Source: Bacteroidales bacterium (lineage in GTDB: Bacteria > Bacteroidota > Bacteroidia > Bacteroidales > JAAUTT01). From it: a stretch of DNA of 34,413 nucleotides. Both the position numbers and the translations under genes were made by a program. Below the pieces are notes generated by a model, which searched no databases, had not been told where the DNA came from, and worked only from the letters and a program-made list of their open reading frames with translations. Where the stretch lies: NCBI GenBank assembly GCA_025361285.1, contig JANYAP010000148.1, positions 1 to 34,413 on the forward strand, written 5' to 3'. This document shows, one piece after another, positions 7,213 to 14,049 of the stretch (the first letter of the stretch is position 1; the number at the start of each line of letters is the position of its first letter).

Positions 7213-7243
7213 TTCGTTACTATCATTTTTTTTAATATATTTG
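7213..7243 (+). promoter_or_regulatory. Predicted promoter of the receiver/Ton block
   Basis: TATATTTG at 7236-7243 is a full match to the Bacteroidota -7 consensus TAnnTTTG. TTCG at 7213-7216, 19 bases upstream, is a three-of-four match to the -33 element. The expected start near 7250 leaves a leader of about 40 bases before the ATG at 7291. Confidence 0.5.
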
Positions 7244-7290: not shown

Positions 7291-7773
7291 ATGTCGAAAA
7301 AAAATTACCCATTAATATTTATTGTTGAGGATAATTTAGCGTATAGCAAAGTGTTGGAAAGGCATTTAATAGCATATAATTATGCCAACATAGTAAAATT
7401 TATAACGGGCGAAGAATGTTTGAATAATTTGTATCGAAAACCAAATATCATCATACAAGACTATAAACTTCAAGGAATTAGCGGCTTAAATGTTCTTCAA
7501 CGAACAAAAAAAGTTTTACCCCAAACCGAATTTATATTTCTCTCAACATTAAGCGATATCGACATAGCAATCAATACAATAAAGGCAGGGGCATATTGTT
7601 ATATATCAAAAAATAATAACGAATTAAATAAACTGATACAGAAAATTGATGAAATTACTGTTTTTCAAGTACTTAATAATAATAGGAAAAAGAAAAAGAA
7701 AAGGTATTTGATAATACTATTTGCATTGATAATCAGTGCTATATCGGCACTAATTATAACAAACATACCATAA
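7291..7773 (+). CDS. Response-regulator receiver domain with C-terminal membrane anchor
   Basis: A 160-residue protein. Residues 6-125 are a complete receiver domain: acidic pair Glu13/Asp14, phospho-acceptor Asp57 in IIIQDYKL, switch Ser85/Thr86 in FLSTLSD, and Lys107 in YISKNN. There is no output domain. A lysine/arginine-rich linker (RKKKKKRY, about 132-139) leads into a single hydrophobic helix at about 140-158, after which the protein ends. This predicts a tail-anchored, cytosol-facing receiver in the inner membrane. No histidine kinase is encoded nearby. It lies upstream of a small membrane protein and the PstS-like/TPR/Ton block in the same direction. A signalling role by docking to a membrane partner is inference. 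Confidence 0.85.
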   Translation: MSKKNYPLIFIVEDNLAYSKVLERHLIAYNYANIVKFITGEECLNNLYRKPNIIIQDYKLQGISGLNVLQRTKKVLPQTEFIFLSTLSDIDIAINTIKAGAYCYISKNNNELNKLIQKIDEITVFQVLNNNRKKKKKRYLIILFALIISAISALIITNIP

Positions 7774-7884
7774 TCAGCACAAAACATTGCATTTCGAGAG
7801 TAAAAAATGTTTTTATCGTAATCAAAAAATAAAAATATTGTTTAATATTGTCGCTCTTAAAAAAACCTTAGTGTGATTAAAAAT

Positions 7885-8097
7885 ATGCCTGTATATACGT
7901 GGGACAATATTTCGAAGCTTTTTGGTATAATTGTTGTAATACTAATTTTAGTTTTAGGAATTGTAGTAGCCACTTCGCAATACTTTGAGTACATACCAAA
8001 AAATTACCGATTAATATTTTCATTTTTTATAATTGCTTATGCAGCATTTCGTTTGGTAACTATTTATAATAAACCCAAATACAATAAAAATGAATAA
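7885..8097 (+). CDS. Small two-helix membrane protein
   Basis: A 70-residue protein read from the ATG at 7885; an in-frame GTG at 7873 would add four residues. It has two hydrophobic segments, roughly residues 14-32 and 43-56, and a charged, lysine-rich tail. I do not recognise a named family. It lies about 110 bases after the receiver gene, and its last eight bases overlap the start of the PstS-like lipoprotein gene (ATG at 8090), which points to translational coupling. A role as a membrane partner or assembly factor of the neighbouring proteins is inference from position. Confidence 0.6.
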   Translation: MPVYTWDNISKLFGIIVVILILVLGIVVATSQYFEYIPKNYRLIFSFFIIAYAAFRLVTIYNKPKYNKNE

Positions 8098-9055
8098 AAG
8101 TATCAGTAAACGTAATTACATTGCAACAGCTTCATTGATAGCACTTATTCTAATGGCTGGATGCATCAGATCTACTCCTTTTAAATTTACCAACGAAACG
8201 CCAACCTCTGGCAATGTGAAAGTTGGAGTCGACGAATCGTTTCAATTACTGCTAGATACCGAAATATTCACCTTCCAATCGATATATAAAGATGCCAAAA
8301 TAACACCATTATATAAACCCGAACTTGGCATACTCGACGATTTTATGAAGGACTCGGTGCGATTTATAGTTACAACCCGTAATTTAACAGCAAACGAAGA
8401 CGCCTATCTGAAAAGTAAGCAAATAATACCACGTACCACAAAAATTGCATACGATGCTCTTGCTTTGATAATTAACCCAAAAAATAGCGATTCGTTAATA
8501 CAATACACAAAAGTTAGAGACATATTTTTGAGCAAAATTACTAACTGGAATCAAATTAGCGCAAAATCGCAATCCAATAATATTTCACTTGTTTTCGATA
8601 ACGAAAAATCGGGTAATGTTCGTTATTTCATCGAAAAATTCAATCTCCCAAACAAATTGCCAAAAAACTTTTATGCCGTTAATAATAACGAAGAAGTAAT
8701 AAATTATGTTGAAAAACATATAAACTCAATTGGCATTATAAGCGTAAACTGGGTGAGCGATAAGCACGATAGCGTTTCTCATTCATTTCTTAAACGCATT
8801 AAGGTTATGGCAATTACGTCGGAATTCGATCCGGAAGGTAACGACTATTATCGCCCATACCAAGGATACATTGCCGACAAATCATATCCATTCATTCGCG
8901 ATGTGTATATTATTAACCGCGAATCGTTTACAGGCCTTGGCTCTGGTTTATTATCGTTTATTGCTGGCGATAAAGGACAACGTATTATATTAAAATCGAA
9001 ACTTGTGCCAGCAACAATGCCAGTTCGCTTGGTACAAATAAAAAAAAGTTATTAA
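8090..9055 (+). CDS. PstS-like substrate-binding lipoprotein
   Basis: A 321-residue lipoprotein with a clear lipobox, LMAGC, lipidated at Cys25. It shows the periplasmic phosphate-binding-protein fold signatures: a TRNLT segment in the first lobe, a KVRDIFLSKITNW block, and VFDNEKSGNVRYF resembling the second ligand loop of PstS. The expected N-terminal loop rich in Ser/Thr that also contacts phosphate is not evident; the equivalent stretch reads VGVDESFQLLL. No ABC permease or ATPase genes follow. Instead it precedes a TPR protein and the ExbB/ExbD/TonB genes, an arrangement I recall from other Bacteroidota. Phosphate binding is uncertain, and the fold assignment is fairly secure. Confidence 0.75.
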   Translation: MNKSISKRNYIATASLIALILMAGCIRSTPFKFTNETPTSGNVKVGVDESFQLLLDTEIFTFQSIYKDAKITPLYKPELGILDDFMKDSVRFIVTTRNLTANEDAYLKSKQIIPRTTKIAYDALALIINPKNSDSLIQYTKVRDIFLSKITNWNQISAKSQSNNISLVFDNEKSGNVRYFIEKFNLPNKLPKNFYAVNNNEEVINYVEKHINSIGIISVNWVSDKHDSVSHSFLKRIKVMAITSEFDPEGNDYYRPYQGYIADKSYPFIRDVYIINRESFTGLGSGLLSFIAGDKGQRIILKSKLVPATMPVRLVQIKKSY

Positions 9056-9101
9056 TTTGCACAGTAACATAAATATTAATGCATTAACACCAAAATAAAT
9101 T

Positions 9102-10919
9102 ATGAGTATGGTTTCTAACATTTCGAGAACTAAATTAGTATTGTTTATTAGTTTTATAGTATACTGTTCAACAGCAAGTTATGCTCAAGATTTAATTTTG
9201 GCTGAAAAGTTATCGTTAAGTGAGCGCTACGAGGACGCCAATGAAATGTATAAGGAATTGATTAAAACTCAGCCTAATAATGGCGATATATACTTTTATT
9301 ATGGCGAAAATATTTTGAAAAGCTATTTAGCCGATCGCTATTCAAACACGCTTTCTGGCGTTACATCGCAGGCAAAAACTATTTTTGAAGCAGGCTTAAA
9401 GGCCGATACTATCAATAAAATAAATGCTATTGGGCTTGGTATGATTGTTTTACAACTAACAAACGACACATCGGCAGCCGATAAATATTTTAATTTGGCC
9501 GAACAAATGCTTCCCAAAAAACAGAAAAAGTATCTAGACGTGCATTATCAATTACTTATTAAACTTGCTACTGCACAATTGTATGCAAAAGATCCTCGAT
9601 ATAAAAAGGCAATTGCATATTTAACAAAAGGAAAGGAATTTGCACCAAACAACCCTAATATTCCAAATGCGCTTGGCGACGTTTATATGCAAAAAAACGA
9701 GGTTTCCAATGCCATTGCTAATTACAACCGAGCATTGTTCCTTAACCCCACCAACCCTGTATATAAGGTTAAAATAGGAAATATATACATAGGTGCCAAA
9801 AACCCTAATGCGGCGCGTCCACTTTTCGATGAGGCAAAATCGATCGATTCCTCTTATGCACCTATTTATAAGTCTATGGGAGCCATGTGGTATTTGGCAG
9901 GTCAAAATAATCTATCAAAAATAAATTACAAGCGATTCCTCGAATTATCGGGCAACAACATTCCCGCCAAGGTAAGTTATGCTAACTCACTTTTCCGTTC
10001 AAAAGATTATACCGAAACACTTAACGTTGTTGAAGAAATCTTAACTATCGATAAATCAAGAAATTACCTTAATCGATTAGCTGCCTACTCATCGTTCGAT
10101 AAAAAGCCTGCCGATTACGAAAAAGCGCTCATCTACAGCGAATTGTTTTTCAAAAATACCACTCCCAATCAAATTATTTTACGCGATTATTTATACTATG
10201 GTAATACACTTTTAAAGCTTAAAAAAGATACTGCTCAGATTGATAAAGGCTTGCAGAATTTGCTTAAAGCCTACCAAATGGATACTACTGATTATGAATT
10301 GTTTTCGAATATTGCTACATTCGCATACCAATATAATCGCTTTGCATTTGCTTCAGAGGTAATATCGAAAAAAATTGCAATGGGTAAAGCCAATTCGGCA
10401 GATTACTTAAATTTAGGAAAAGTGTATTATAAAACCAAACAATACGGAAAAGCCGACACCACTTTTACTCAACTTACAAAGATAGATTCTACTAATATTC
10501 AAGCATATATGTGGCTAGCAAATACATACGCAAGCAACGAAATTGACAATAAACTACCTGGGATAGCAAAGCTCAAATTCGAAAAATTAGCTGAAATAGG
10601 TGCTATGGACTCGGTTAAATTCAAAAACGAACTTTTTCAAGCTTATTCTTATTTAGGTGCATATTACCTATTAACAGTAAAGCCTACAAACAATGGGAAA
10701 GCATCTACCTATTTTGAAAAATTAACAACTCTCGATCCTAAAAACAAACAGTGGTTAAGTAAAGGATTCCAAGGCTTGGCGGCTGTTTTTCAAAACAAGA
10801 AAGATTACCCAAAGGCTATTGAGTATTGTAATAAGGTATTAGAAATTGAACCTAATAACCTTGGTATTAAAACAATGAAGGAAAGTTTAAAAAAGGCAAT
10901 TGCGCCACCTAAAAACTAA
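9102..10919 (+). CDS. Exported tetratricopeptide-repeat protein
   Basis: A 605-residue protein with an N-terminal signal peptide (residues about 1-29, ending ASYAQ). Nearly all the rest is helical TPR sequence, with repeat signatures such as ALGDVYMQKNEVSNAIANYN, YLNLGKVYYKTKQYGKADTT and DYPKAIEYCNKVLEIEPNN. TPR arrays act as protein-docking scaffolds. Its place between the PstS-like lipoprotein and exbB suggests a periplasmic scaffold for the Ton motor or its clients, which is inference. It starts 46 bases after the previous gene, so it is probably in the same operon. A second in-frame ATG two codons downstream is an equally possible start. Confidence 0.8.
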   Translation: MSMVSNISRTKLVLFISFIVYCSTASYAQDLILAEKLSLSERYEDANEMYKELIKTQPNNGDIYFYYGENILKSYLADRYSNTLSGVTSQAKTIFEAGLKADTINKINAIGLGMIVLQLTNDTSAADKYFNLAEQMLPKKQKKYLDVHYQLLIKLATAQLYAKDPRYKKAIAYLTKGKEFAPNNPNIPNALGDVYMQKNEVSNAIANYNRALFLNPTNPVYKVKIGNIYIGAKNPNAARPLFDEAKSIDSSYAPIYKSMGAMWYLAGQNNLSKINYKRFLELSGNNIPAKVSYANSLFRSKDYTETLNVVEEILTIDKSRNYLNRLAAYSSFDKKPADYEKALIYSELFFKNTTPNQIILRDYLYYGNTLLKLKKDTAQIDKGLQNLLKAYQMDTTDYELFSNIATFAYQYNRFAFASEVISKKIAMGKANSADYLNLGKVYYKTKQYGKADTTFTQLTKIDSTNIQAYMWLANTYASNEIDNKLPGIAKLKFEKLAEIGAMDSVKFKNELFQAYSYLGAYYLLTVKPTNNGKASTYFEKLTTLDPKNKQWLSKGFQGLAAVFQNKKDYPKAIEYCNKVLEIEPNNLGIKTMKESLKKAIAPPKN

Positions 10920-11091
10920 ATATTTTCGAAATTTCAGTAATTTGCAATTTGTTGGTATTTTCAATACTTAATTAACAAATTAAGAGCTATATTCGACCCT
11001 TATTTTTTAGGTGCTGTTTTATTAAAAAATGCATTAACATTCAAACCAAATAATTAATATATTTATTCATTTTATAACAAAATTTAAACGT

Positions 11092-11904
11092 ATGAGTACT
11101 AAAGGACAATCAATTAAAGATGTATTATCATCAATTTTTGCAACTTCGGTGATATTGATTTGTATAGCTGTTGGGTTTGCAATTTTCTATTTCGTTTTAG
11201 GCGACCCTATTAATTTCGAAGGTGGAAACGTTGAAAAAGGCCACGCTCTTGGTTATTTAGGTATAGTTTATCGAGGCGGTATTATTGTGCCTATTCTTAT
11301 TTCAGTTATTCTTATTCTTATTACGTTTTCAATTGAACGTGGCGTTTCGTTAGCTAAGGCTAGTGGTAAAGGTCGTTTAAGTGCCTTTGTTGGAAATATT
11401 CGTTCGCTACTTAAAGAAGACAAAATTGAAGAAGCCATTACAGCTTGCGACAATCAAAAAGGTTCGTTAGCTAACGTTGCAAAAGCTGGTTTACACCGCT
11501 ACCGCGATTTGCAAACCGACAATACATTGCCTAACGATCAGAAAGTTCTTGCTTTTCAAAAGGAATTAGAAGAAGCAACAGCACTTGAGTTACCAATGTT
11601 ATCGAAGAATTTAGTCGTTCTTTCTACAATTTCTTCTGTATCAGTTTTAATAGGTCTTATCGGTACTGTACTTGGTATGATAAAGGCTTTCCGCGAACTG
11701 GCTAGTGCTGGCTCGCCCGATGCTCTTGCATTATCAAACGCAATTGCTGAAGCACTTATAAATACTGCGTTTGGTATTACAGGATCGACCATTGCACTTA
11801 TTCTTTACAATTATTACTCGTCTAAAATTGATGCAATGACATTTAAAATCGATGAATCTAACTTTAGTCTTTCTCAAACTTTTGCTTCTACATTAAAGAA
11901 GTAA
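11092..11904 (+). CDS. exbB: MotA/TolQ/ExbB proton channel family protein
   Basis: A 270-residue inner-membrane protein. Hydrophobic helices lie near residues 15-38, 62-80, 170-195 and 208-240. The last two carry the family core (LSTISSVSVLIGLIGTVLGM and NTAFGITGSTIALILYNYY) that lines the proton path, and a charged cytoplasmic stretch lies between helices 2 and 3. With ExbD and TonB it couples proton-motive force to outer-membrane transport. It is followed by two exbD genes and tonB with short gaps, consistent with one operon. The 172-base gap before it may hold its own promoter, but I found no full consensus box there. Confidence 0.9.
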   Translation: MSTKGQSIKDVLSSIFATSVILICIAVGFAIFYFVLGDPINFEGGNVEKGHALGYLGIVYRGGIIVPILISVILILITFSIERGVSLAKASGKGRLSAFVGNIRSLLKEDKIEEAITACDNQKGSLANVAKAGLHRYRDLQTDNTLPNDQKVLAFQKELEEATALELPMLSKNLVVLSTISSVSVLIGLIGTVLGMIKAFRELASAGSPDALALSNAIAEALINTAFGITGSTIALILYNYYSSKIDAMTFKIDESNFSLSQTFASTLKK

Positions 11905-11959
11905 TTAGTTTTCGGACAATTATTTAGACTGTTGATTTTAATAATTTCAAAAATATATT

Positions 11960-12580
11960 ATGTCGAAAATTAAATTACCATCGAAACCGCCCAGGATTGA
12001 CATGACGCCGATGGTTGACCTATTCTTCCTGTTGCTAACATTCTTTATGTTAACAACATCGTTTAAGCCACAGGAAGCTGTTCAGGTTGACACACCTAAT
12101 TCGATATCCGATAAAACAACACCCGAAAAGGATGTTATTACCGTATTCGTTGGCAAGGACAATAAAGTGTTCTTTAACATTGATAATGGCAAGGATAGCT
12201 CGTCGCATATCCGACGAAAAGTACTTGTTAAGGTAGCCGAGCAATATAAGGTTAAATTTACACCAGCTCAAATTAAAAGATTTGAGACGTTAGCCTCTTT
12301 CGGTATGCCAATTAAAGACATGCCTGCCTGGATAAGTGCTACCGATCCGAAAGTTCGCGACGAAATGCAAGTTGGCGTGCCAATGGACTCTCTGAACAAC
12401 CAGTTGGAAATGTGGATACTTATATCTAGAAACGAAAATAGTAATGCCGAGGTTGCTGTTAAAGGCGATTATGCTTCGGATTATAAGGTAGTAAAAAAGG
12501 TAATGGATCTGTTTCAGAAATATAACATGAACAAGTTTAACCTTACCACCACACTCGAAAAGGTTGAAGTTAAACTATAA
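11960..12580 (+). CDS. exbD: Biopolymer transport protein ExbD (first copy)
   Basis: A 206-residue protein. The N-terminal cytoplasmic tail leads into the ExbD transmembrane helix with the family motif RIDMTPMVDLFFLLLTFFML, where the Asp in PMVD is the conserved protonatable residue. The periplasmic part is longer than the roughly 140-residue proteobacterial ExbD, with an insertion at about residues 75-130, and ends in a segment like the usual periplasmic dimer domain (GDYASDYKVVKKVMDLFQKY). It lies 55 bases after exbB and 18 bases before the second exbD. Confidence 0.9.
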   Translation: MSKIKLPSKPPRIDMTPMVDLFFLLLTFFMLTTSFKPQEAVQVDTPNSISDKTTPEKDVITVFVGKDNKVFFNIDNGKDSSSHIRRKVLVKVAEQYKVKFTPAQIKRFETLASFGMPIKDMPAWISATDPKVRDEMQVGVPMDSLNNQLEMWILISRNENSNAEVAVKGDYASDYKVVKKVMDLFQKYNMNKFNLTTTLEKVEVKL

Positions 12581-12598
12581 TATCTAATAAAACGAAAC

Positions 12599-13243
12599 AT
12601 GGCAGAAATAATTGCAAACGAAGGTGGTGGCAAGCATAAAGGAAAACGACGCGCCAAAAAACTTTCCACTCATATCGACATGACTCCGATGGTGGATTTG
12701 GCTTGTCTTCTGTTAACCTTTTTTATGTTAACTACAGCCTTTAGCAAACCAAAAGTTATGGAGATTGCGCTTCCCGATAAGAAGCCTATTAAAGATCCTC
12801 CAAAACTTGATCAAGATAAAGTTATAACTGTAATTCTTGATGAGAATGACAAAGTTTATTATTACAATAAACTTGCCGATCCAGCTAAACTCCCTCTACC
12901 AGAACTTGTTGAGTCGAATTTCAGTAAGGACGGACTTAGAAAACTATTTCTCAACAGAAATAAGGATTTATTTGCAAAAGTGGCAAATTATAACGATTCC
13001 ATAATGAAAGTTAAGGATGCTATGCCTCCTGATACACTGAGAAGTAGAATTAAGGCTATGGGGAAAGCAGATAAGGTAGGTCCTTTTGTTATGATTAAAG
13101 CTACCGACAAGGCTAAGTATGGCAACGTAGTTAATGTAATTGACGAATTAGCAATTACTAACGTTGTTAGATATGCTATAGTCGATTTGAATCCTATCGA
13201 AATTAAAATGCTTGAGGCAAAGAAAAATACATCTAAACCATAA
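12599..13243 (+). CDS. exbD: Biopolymer transport protein ExbD (second copy)
   Basis: A 214-residue paralogue of the preceding gene. A basic N-terminus (KHKGKRRAKKLS) precedes HIDMTPMVDLACLLLTFFML, again with the conserved Asp. The periplasmic domain carries an insertion like that of the first copy and ends KYGNVVNVIDELAITNVVRY. Two different exbD genes suggest a hetero-dimeric ExbD in the motor, as seen in many Bacteroidota clusters. It lies 18 bases after the first copy and 20 before tonB. Confidence 0.9.
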   Translation: MAEIIANEGGGKHKGKRRAKKLSTHIDMTPMVDLACLLLTFFMLTTAFSKPKVMEIALPDKKPIKDPPKLDQDKVITVILDENDKVYYYNKLADPAKLPLPELVESNFSKDGLRKLFLNRNKDLFAKVANYNDSIMKVKDAMPPDTLRSRIKAMGKADKVGPFVMIKATDKAKYGNVVNVIDELAITNVVRYAIVDLNPIEIKMLEAKKNTSKP

Positions 13244-13263
13244 CCTTTCAAAACCTTCTTATT

Positions 13264-14049
13264 ATGACAAAAAACAATGAAATAGATATACAAGAAAGGG
13301 CTGATAGTTTTGATGAAATTGTATTTGTAGGGCGTAATAGGGAATATGGAGCCTATTATTTGCGAAAAAAATACAATAAATACATTCTTATTGCCTTTTT
13401 GTTTGGTTTTTCAATTGTATCTACCGCGGTGGTTACCCCATTGGTGTATAGCTATTATAACAGAGATAAGCTAAAACGGGCTTTGGAGAATATTGTTACT
13501 GCCGAACTCGAAAATATTAAAAACGAAGAACCACCACCACCGCCGCCGCCGCCGCCACCACCTGCCGAAATTGTGCAGCAAATTAAGTTTGTGGCGCCTG
13601 AGGTTGTCGATACGGTAAAAGACGAAGTGGAAATAGCTACTGCCGATGATTTGGTATCGGTAATAAACGAACCTCCACCAACAGAAATTGTTGTTGAGGA
13701 AAAGAAAGACGAAGTTATTGTTGAAGAAAAGATATTCTTTGCCGTAGAGGAGAGTGCAACCTTTATGGGTGGCGATATTGAAAGCTTTCGAGGTTGGATT
13801 CAGGAACACATGAAATTTCCCGAAAGTGCTATCGAAATGGGTATCGAAGGAAAAGTTATACTTTCGTTTGTAATTAACTCACGCGGGGCTGTTGAGAATG
13901 CCAAAATTTTGCGTGGTGTAGATCCAGCGCTCGATCAGGAAGTTATTCGTGTTATACAGAGTTCGCCTAAATGGATACCAGGAAAACAAGGCGGAAAGGC
14001 TGTAAAACAACAGTTTACGATTCCTATTGCATTTAAACTTCAAAAATAA
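13264..14049 (+). CDS. tonB: Energy transducer TonB
   Basis: A 261-residue protein. Residues 1-36 are a cytoplasmic tail containing the Bacteroidota segment VGRNREYGAYYLRKKY. A transmembrane helix at about 39-62 follows, then a periplasmic linker with eleven consecutive prolines (13531-13563, codons CCA/CCG/CCT) and acidic stretches. The C-terminal TonB domain (about 180-260) contains FPESAIEMGIEGKVILSFVI, GVDPALDQEVIRVI and KWIPGKQGGK. It carries energy from ExbB/ExbD to TonB-dependent receptors. It is the last gene of the block and is followed 38 bases later by a strong hairpin terminator. Confidence 0.93.
   Translation: MTKNNEIDIQERADSFDEIVFVGRNREYGAYYLRKKYNKYILIAFLFGFSIVSTAVVTPLVYSYYNRDKLKRALENIVTAELENIKNEEPPPPPPPPPPPAEIVQQIKFVAPEVVDTVKDEVEIATADDLVSVINEPPPTEIVVEEKKDEVIVEEKIFFAVEESATFMGGDIESFRGWIQEHMKFPESAIEMGIEGKVILSFVINSRGAVENAKILRGVDPALDQEVIRVIQSSPKWIPGKQGGKAVKQQFTIPIAFKLQK
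13531..13563 (+). repeat. Proline-codon microsatellite in tonB
   Basis: Eleven consecutive proline codons: three CCA, five CCG, two CCA and one CCT. The five identical CCG units form a 15-base trinucleotide run that could change length by slippage without breaking the frame. Confidence 0.85.

Follow-up and report, generated by a model that had tools for sequence, protein, structure and literature searches.

A predicted tail-anchored single-domain receiver from a Bacteroidales bacterium belongs to a recurrent family in Bacteroidota

The window (the whole stretch of 34,413 nucleotides of Bacteroidales DNA that we analysed) encodes a response-regulator receiver that is predicted to be tethered to the inner membrane by its own C-terminal helix. 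We think it reasonably probable that this protein is a membrane-tethered phospho-acceptor of a His-Asp phosphorelay, acting by protein contacts at the inner membrane, with its kinase or HPt protein encoded elsewhere. Several observations speak for this reading: the receiver is intact, the hydrophobic tail is terminal, the family is conserved, some of its loci hold kinase and HPt genes, and Hpt domains occur in the protein's own genome. Against it count the lack of a kinase gene beside this copy or its orthologue, the position of the kinase-HPt loci in another clade, a weak structure model, an asparagine at the phosphorylation site of two family members (L129 and L140), and a membrane insertion read from hydropathy only. 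The gene and its parts are as follows.

7236..7243, + strand: -7 promoter motif TAnnTTTG (Bacteroidota), perfect match, ~50 bases upstream of the start codon
7291..7773, + strand: predicted tail-anchored single-domain receiver, 160 amino acids (open reading frame; PF00072, 55.6 bits; tail kept in the closest orthologue, 57% identical)
7315..7647, + strand: receiver domain, residues 9-119, with E13/D14, D57, S85 and K107 (Pfam; conservation in 42 members)
7669..7704, + strand: basic juxtamembrane linker, residues 127-138, including RKKKKKR (translation; charge across 42 members)
7705..7761, + strand: predicted C-terminal transmembrane helix, residues 139-157, with 3 residues after it (hydropathy 2.7; low-confidence model)

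The reading frame opens with an ATG at 7291 and closes with a TAA that ends at 7773. The promoter motif in front of it is weak evidence (25 matches lie on the same strand of the window). A Pfam search of the 160-residue product identified the receiver (Response_reg, cut-off 30.2) and no domain besides it, and by domain content the protein is a single-domain response regulator. The initial annotation had described a receiver with a complete phosphorylation site and without an output domain. In the translation each residue that it had named is where it had placed it: the acidic pair E13/D14, the phospho-acceptor D57, K107, and, from its Ser85/Thr86, the canonical S85 with T86 as the position after. 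The residue that follows K107 is an asparagine, as opposed to the proline usual in receivers. The missing output domain agrees with the Pfam result, and is better worded as the lack of a soluble one.

Behind the receiver, the basic linker leads into a single hydrophobic helix that ends the protein (RKKKKKRYLIILFALIISAISALIITNIP), again as the initial annotation had it. The best 19-residue stretch, residues 139-157, has a mean Kyte-Doolittle hydropathy of 2.7 and is the sole such segment in the protein. When the whole protein was shuffled 20,000 times, an equally hydrophobic stretch fell within the last 12 residues in 18 of the shuffles. The protein thus has what defines a tail anchor, namely a single predicted transmembrane segment, placed no more than ~30 residues from the C-terminus, and by hydropathy prediction it departs from the solubility expected of single-domain response regulators. 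Across the 42 family members described below, the net charge of the 15 residues that precede the hydrophobic segment averages +3.6, and ~6 residues come after the segment. By the positive-inside rule, this basic stretch and the short end behind the segment place the receiver on the cytoplasmic side. We infer that the window receiver is inserted into the inner membrane with its N-terminus and receiver in the cytoplasm, a predicted topology with which the basic linker is consistent. A Pro-x-x-aromatic ending (FPNLF, FPNIF, YPDLF) recurs in 16 of the 42 anchored receivers (for example in L143, L141 and L126), directly after the membrane helix and on its predicted outer side.

A structure model of the window protein, built from a two-sequence input, is weak (pLDDT 60.6), and its fold matches are receivers, with RssB on top. 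In this model, alpha-5 and the tail form one continuous helix (residues 109-157), which suggests that alpha-5 probably leads straight into the membrane helix. Alpha-5 is part of the usual phosphorylation-sensitive switch face of receivers. A direct connection between alpha-5 and the membrane helix would thus offer a simple route for the signal.

The hydrophobic tail is not unique to the window gene; the closest orthologue, a paralogue in the same genome and a wider family all carry one. The only close orthologue (G001; contig JANXXY010000150.1 of a Bacteroidales MAG, placed in the same genus by search grouping) is 57% identical over its length, and was the only hit when the named genome collection was scanned with the single protein. 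The same scan of a viral collection found no relative. Between the two orthologues, identity is 65% in the receiver part and 32% in the tail part, and the orthologue's tail is still hydrophobic and sits behind a KKRKR linker. Thus, it is the hydrophobicity that has been kept, and not the individual residues. Of ~22 short proteins with nothing but a receiver that were read in the window's own genome, only the window protein and one paralogue have the tail; the genome also encodes many long receiver-bearing proteins, and Hpt domains occur in seven places, six of them above the Pfam cut-off. The paralogue lies on another contig.

Contig C170, L045 9370-9855: second tail-anchored receiver of the own genome, 162 amino acids

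About 4 kb upstream of the paralogue (L045 3-5314), a phosphatase of the SpoIIE type is encoded together with a DUF6272 protein and a TerB-domain ABC transporter; genes of the first two kinds are found near the anchored receiver in L038 as well. The paralogue is also apparently close to a TonB gene (L045 7176-7862), but an HflX-like GTPase gene intervenes and the arrangement is absent from the other loci.

Homologues with the same tail, whose absence the initial annotation had named as grounds for giving up its proposal, were found in number: we collected 42 tail-anchored receivers from 32 Bacteroidota genomes. With a profile search, anchored relatives turned up in at least 27 of the 295 genomes sampled from the same order; others came from the same class and from a second class of the phylum. 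The position of the phospho-acceptor, D57, is aspartate in 40 of the 42 members and asparagine in two (L129 and L140), so not all members work by phosphorylation. The position of D14 is invariably aspartate, position 85 is serine or threonine and K107 is conserved in all 42, and in none of them does a proline follow the conserved lysine. On a tree of 112 receivers, in which the domain is short and many forks are unresolved, the anchored label requires 10 changes compared with 34 for shuffled labels and is thus strongly clustered. These 10 changes indicate that the tail probably arose or disappeared on several occasions. The window protein belongs to a clade of eight rows, all of them anchored (SH-aLRT 93). 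Judged from these sequences, a scattered but recurrent family of tail-anchored receivers exists in Bacteroidota.

No single set of neighbours is common to all anchored receivers; we looked for one and rejected it, as each subclade keeps its own company. In an anchored-receiver subclade represented by five loci (L044, L136, L139, L141 and L147), a gene for HtpG (HSP90) lies directly downstream, and some of these loci have a DUF4476 protein upstream. The two receivers with asparagine at the phospho-acceptor position are each followed, on the same strand, by an MFS-type transporter gene; they are perhaps phosphorylation-independent regulators.

L136 7971-8510: HtpG-associated anchored receiver
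L139 1703-2269: HtpG-associated anchored receiver
L129 7730-8224, - strand: anchored receiver with Asn for the phospho-Asp
L140 7963-8460, - strand: anchored receiver with Asn for the phospho-Asp

Elsewhere in the family, the recurrent neighbours are kinase genes. Four loci from three bacterial families (L130, L131, L132 and L134) encode a two-transmembrane hybrid kinase followed by an HPt protein, with one or two anchored receivers behind it; for the proteins of L130, Pfam confirmed the HisKA, HATPase_c, Response_reg and Hpt domains. In a locus of a fourth family (L042), a short kinase frame or fragment and an HPt protein accompany the anchored receiver, and in one from another class (L151) a kinase with REC and Hpt domains lies directly downstream of it. 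The anchored receivers of these six loci fall outside the clade of the window protein. Within the window clade, L038 carries on one strand a soluble receiver, an anchored receiver, a soluble hybrid kinase and a REC-kinase protein, and the run also includes a phosphatase of the SpoIIE type, which has TPRs and membrane segments, and a DUF6272 protein. Neither the window copy nor its orthologue is adjoined by a kinase gene, and the window copy is an orphan in this sense.

From the intact site and the company that its relatives keep, we infer that the window copy is phosphorylated and takes part in a phosphorelay. The C-terminal transmembrane helix would hold the receiver at the cytoplasmic face of the inner membrane, where Asp57 would take the phosphoryl group from a histidine kinase or an HPt protein encoded elsewhere in the genome. 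The phosphorylated form would then alter its contacts with itself, with a kinase or with another membrane protein, and the switch would be read within the plane of the membrane, through alpha-5 joined to the membrane helix. The gene runs of L131, L132 and L134 also include a soluble receiver from the same clade as the anchored ones, and these operons lend themselves to testing for a branched phosphorelay. Bacteroidota may use an undescribed class of tethered receivers as a separate branch of this kind, in which a single HPt protein supplies a soluble receiver and an anchored one alike, the latter signalling to a membrane target through the helix that enters the bilayer; we put this forward tentatively, as a possibility on the doubtful side.

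The main rival to the phosphorelay output, with which it overlaps, is that the anchored receiver is a local phosphate sink or a kinase brake at the membrane, which draws phosphoryl groups away from membrane or soluble kinases, or blocks these, and lacks a target of its own. The three loci with anchored and soluble sisters in tandem behind the same kinase and HPt protein suit this idea, as the two would be competing acceptors. Single-domain response regulators are known as receiver-only proteins that act by protein contacts, and inhibition of kinases by some of them has been described (PMC12471899). However, no kinase adjoins the window copy, and we regard a sink or brake as rather unlikely.

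A different partner was proposed by the initial annotation, which had placed the receiver in the service of the genes that follow it on the same strand.

7873-8097, + strand: small two-transmembrane protein, upstream of the PstS-like gene; no family match above cut-off
8090-14049, + strand: module of PstS-like, TPR, ExbB, ExbD, ExbD and TonB genes

The receiver would, in that proposal, regulate the small membrane protein or the ExbB/ExbD/TonB motor. The arrangement in the window lends itself to this: the receiver gene lies on the same strand, 99 to 111 bases upstream of the small-protein gene, and a search for terminator-like sites in the gap found none. Yet the neighbourhood is not conserved. 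When we examined what lies around the PstS-like gene in 15 further genomes, the majority had the same module, either as ExbB-ExbD-ExbD-TonB-small protein-PstS-TPR or as small protein-PstS-TPR-ExbB-ExbD-ExbD-TonB, and in none of the 15 did a receiver of the window type stand beside the PstS/Ton genes (some of these loci are cut by contig ends). One of them (L198) has a receiver protein upstream, but a different one of 252 amino acids. PstS and TPR thus come before or after the motor genes, varying by genome. The small protein is conserved in the modules of these relatives and usually adjoins PstS, which assigns it to the Ton/PstS module. The orthologue of the receiver, its tail intact, is located elsewhere. 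In the orientation of the window, its gene order is YitT-like, photolyase, receiver and a convergent LysM gene, compared with YitT-like, metallophosphoesterase, receiver and PstS module in the window; synteny is thus preserved towards the YitT-like gene and lost towards the Ton genes. The PstS/Ton genes of that genome are on another contig, which ends directly upstream of the small protein. Among five genomes of the genus, two have the anchored receiver, whereas all five have the PstS-like gene. By gene order, then, the window receiver does not belong to the Ton/PstS operon next to it, and a regulatory link to the small membrane protein or the motor is very unlikely. What the initial annotation had said of a phosphorylation that acts on a membrane partner survives in part: the tail anchor and the intact site are borne out and contacts in the membrane are expected, and the Ton motor or small protein as that partner finds no support.

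It is also highly improbable that an intramembrane or other membrane protease releases the tail or turns it over, the receiver being a stored regulator that becomes soluble afterwards: a single-pass tail with a short outer end would make a plausible protease substrate, but no protease was noted among the neighbours. That the protein is a decaying response regulator with a lost output domain and an accidental hydrophobic end is scarcely credible, and although its closest solved relatives are receivers of NtrC-type regulators, the idea is largely refuted by the conservation of the tail (in the orthologue, throughout the window clade and in the second copy of the own genome) and of the window receiver's active site.

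In two-component signalling, response regulators are taken to be the soluble partner. If the phosphorelay reading is true, there are phosphorelays whose output is delivered within the membrane. The tandem loci of soluble and anchored receivers make such branching directly testable: does one HPt protein serve both, and what does the anchored receiver contact?

Among systems already described, a search of the open literature, outside which most subscription journals lie, found no description of membrane-anchored bacterial single-domain receivers, a silence that counts as weak evidence. The nearest thing on record is a 'membrane-anchored MetOD3' output domain in archaeal response regulators (PMC5847659). 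Likened by description only, they too tie a receiver to a membrane segment; unlike the window protein, they have a named output domain and are confined to one or two methanogen genera. RssB of Pseudomonas, the top fold match, likewise has a receiver followed by a long helix, in a match that comes from the weak model, but its C-terminal domain is soluble and it has no membrane segment. NtrC-family regulators of Bacteroidota are among the closest receiver sequences, and NtrC1 of that family is the best match among solved structures; these proteins, however, extend over about 450 amino acids with AAA+ and DNA-binding domains, which the window protein lacks. The closest parallel in domain content is with single-domain response regulators of the CheY and Spo0F type, which likewise consist of one receiver with a complete phosphorylation site and have neither a DNA-binding nor an enzymatic output. 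The known ones are soluble, whereas the window protein has a predicted C-terminal membrane anchor, and the membrane-tethered receiver is best read as a new variant of single-domain response regulators, with a mechanism that is unproven and open to test.
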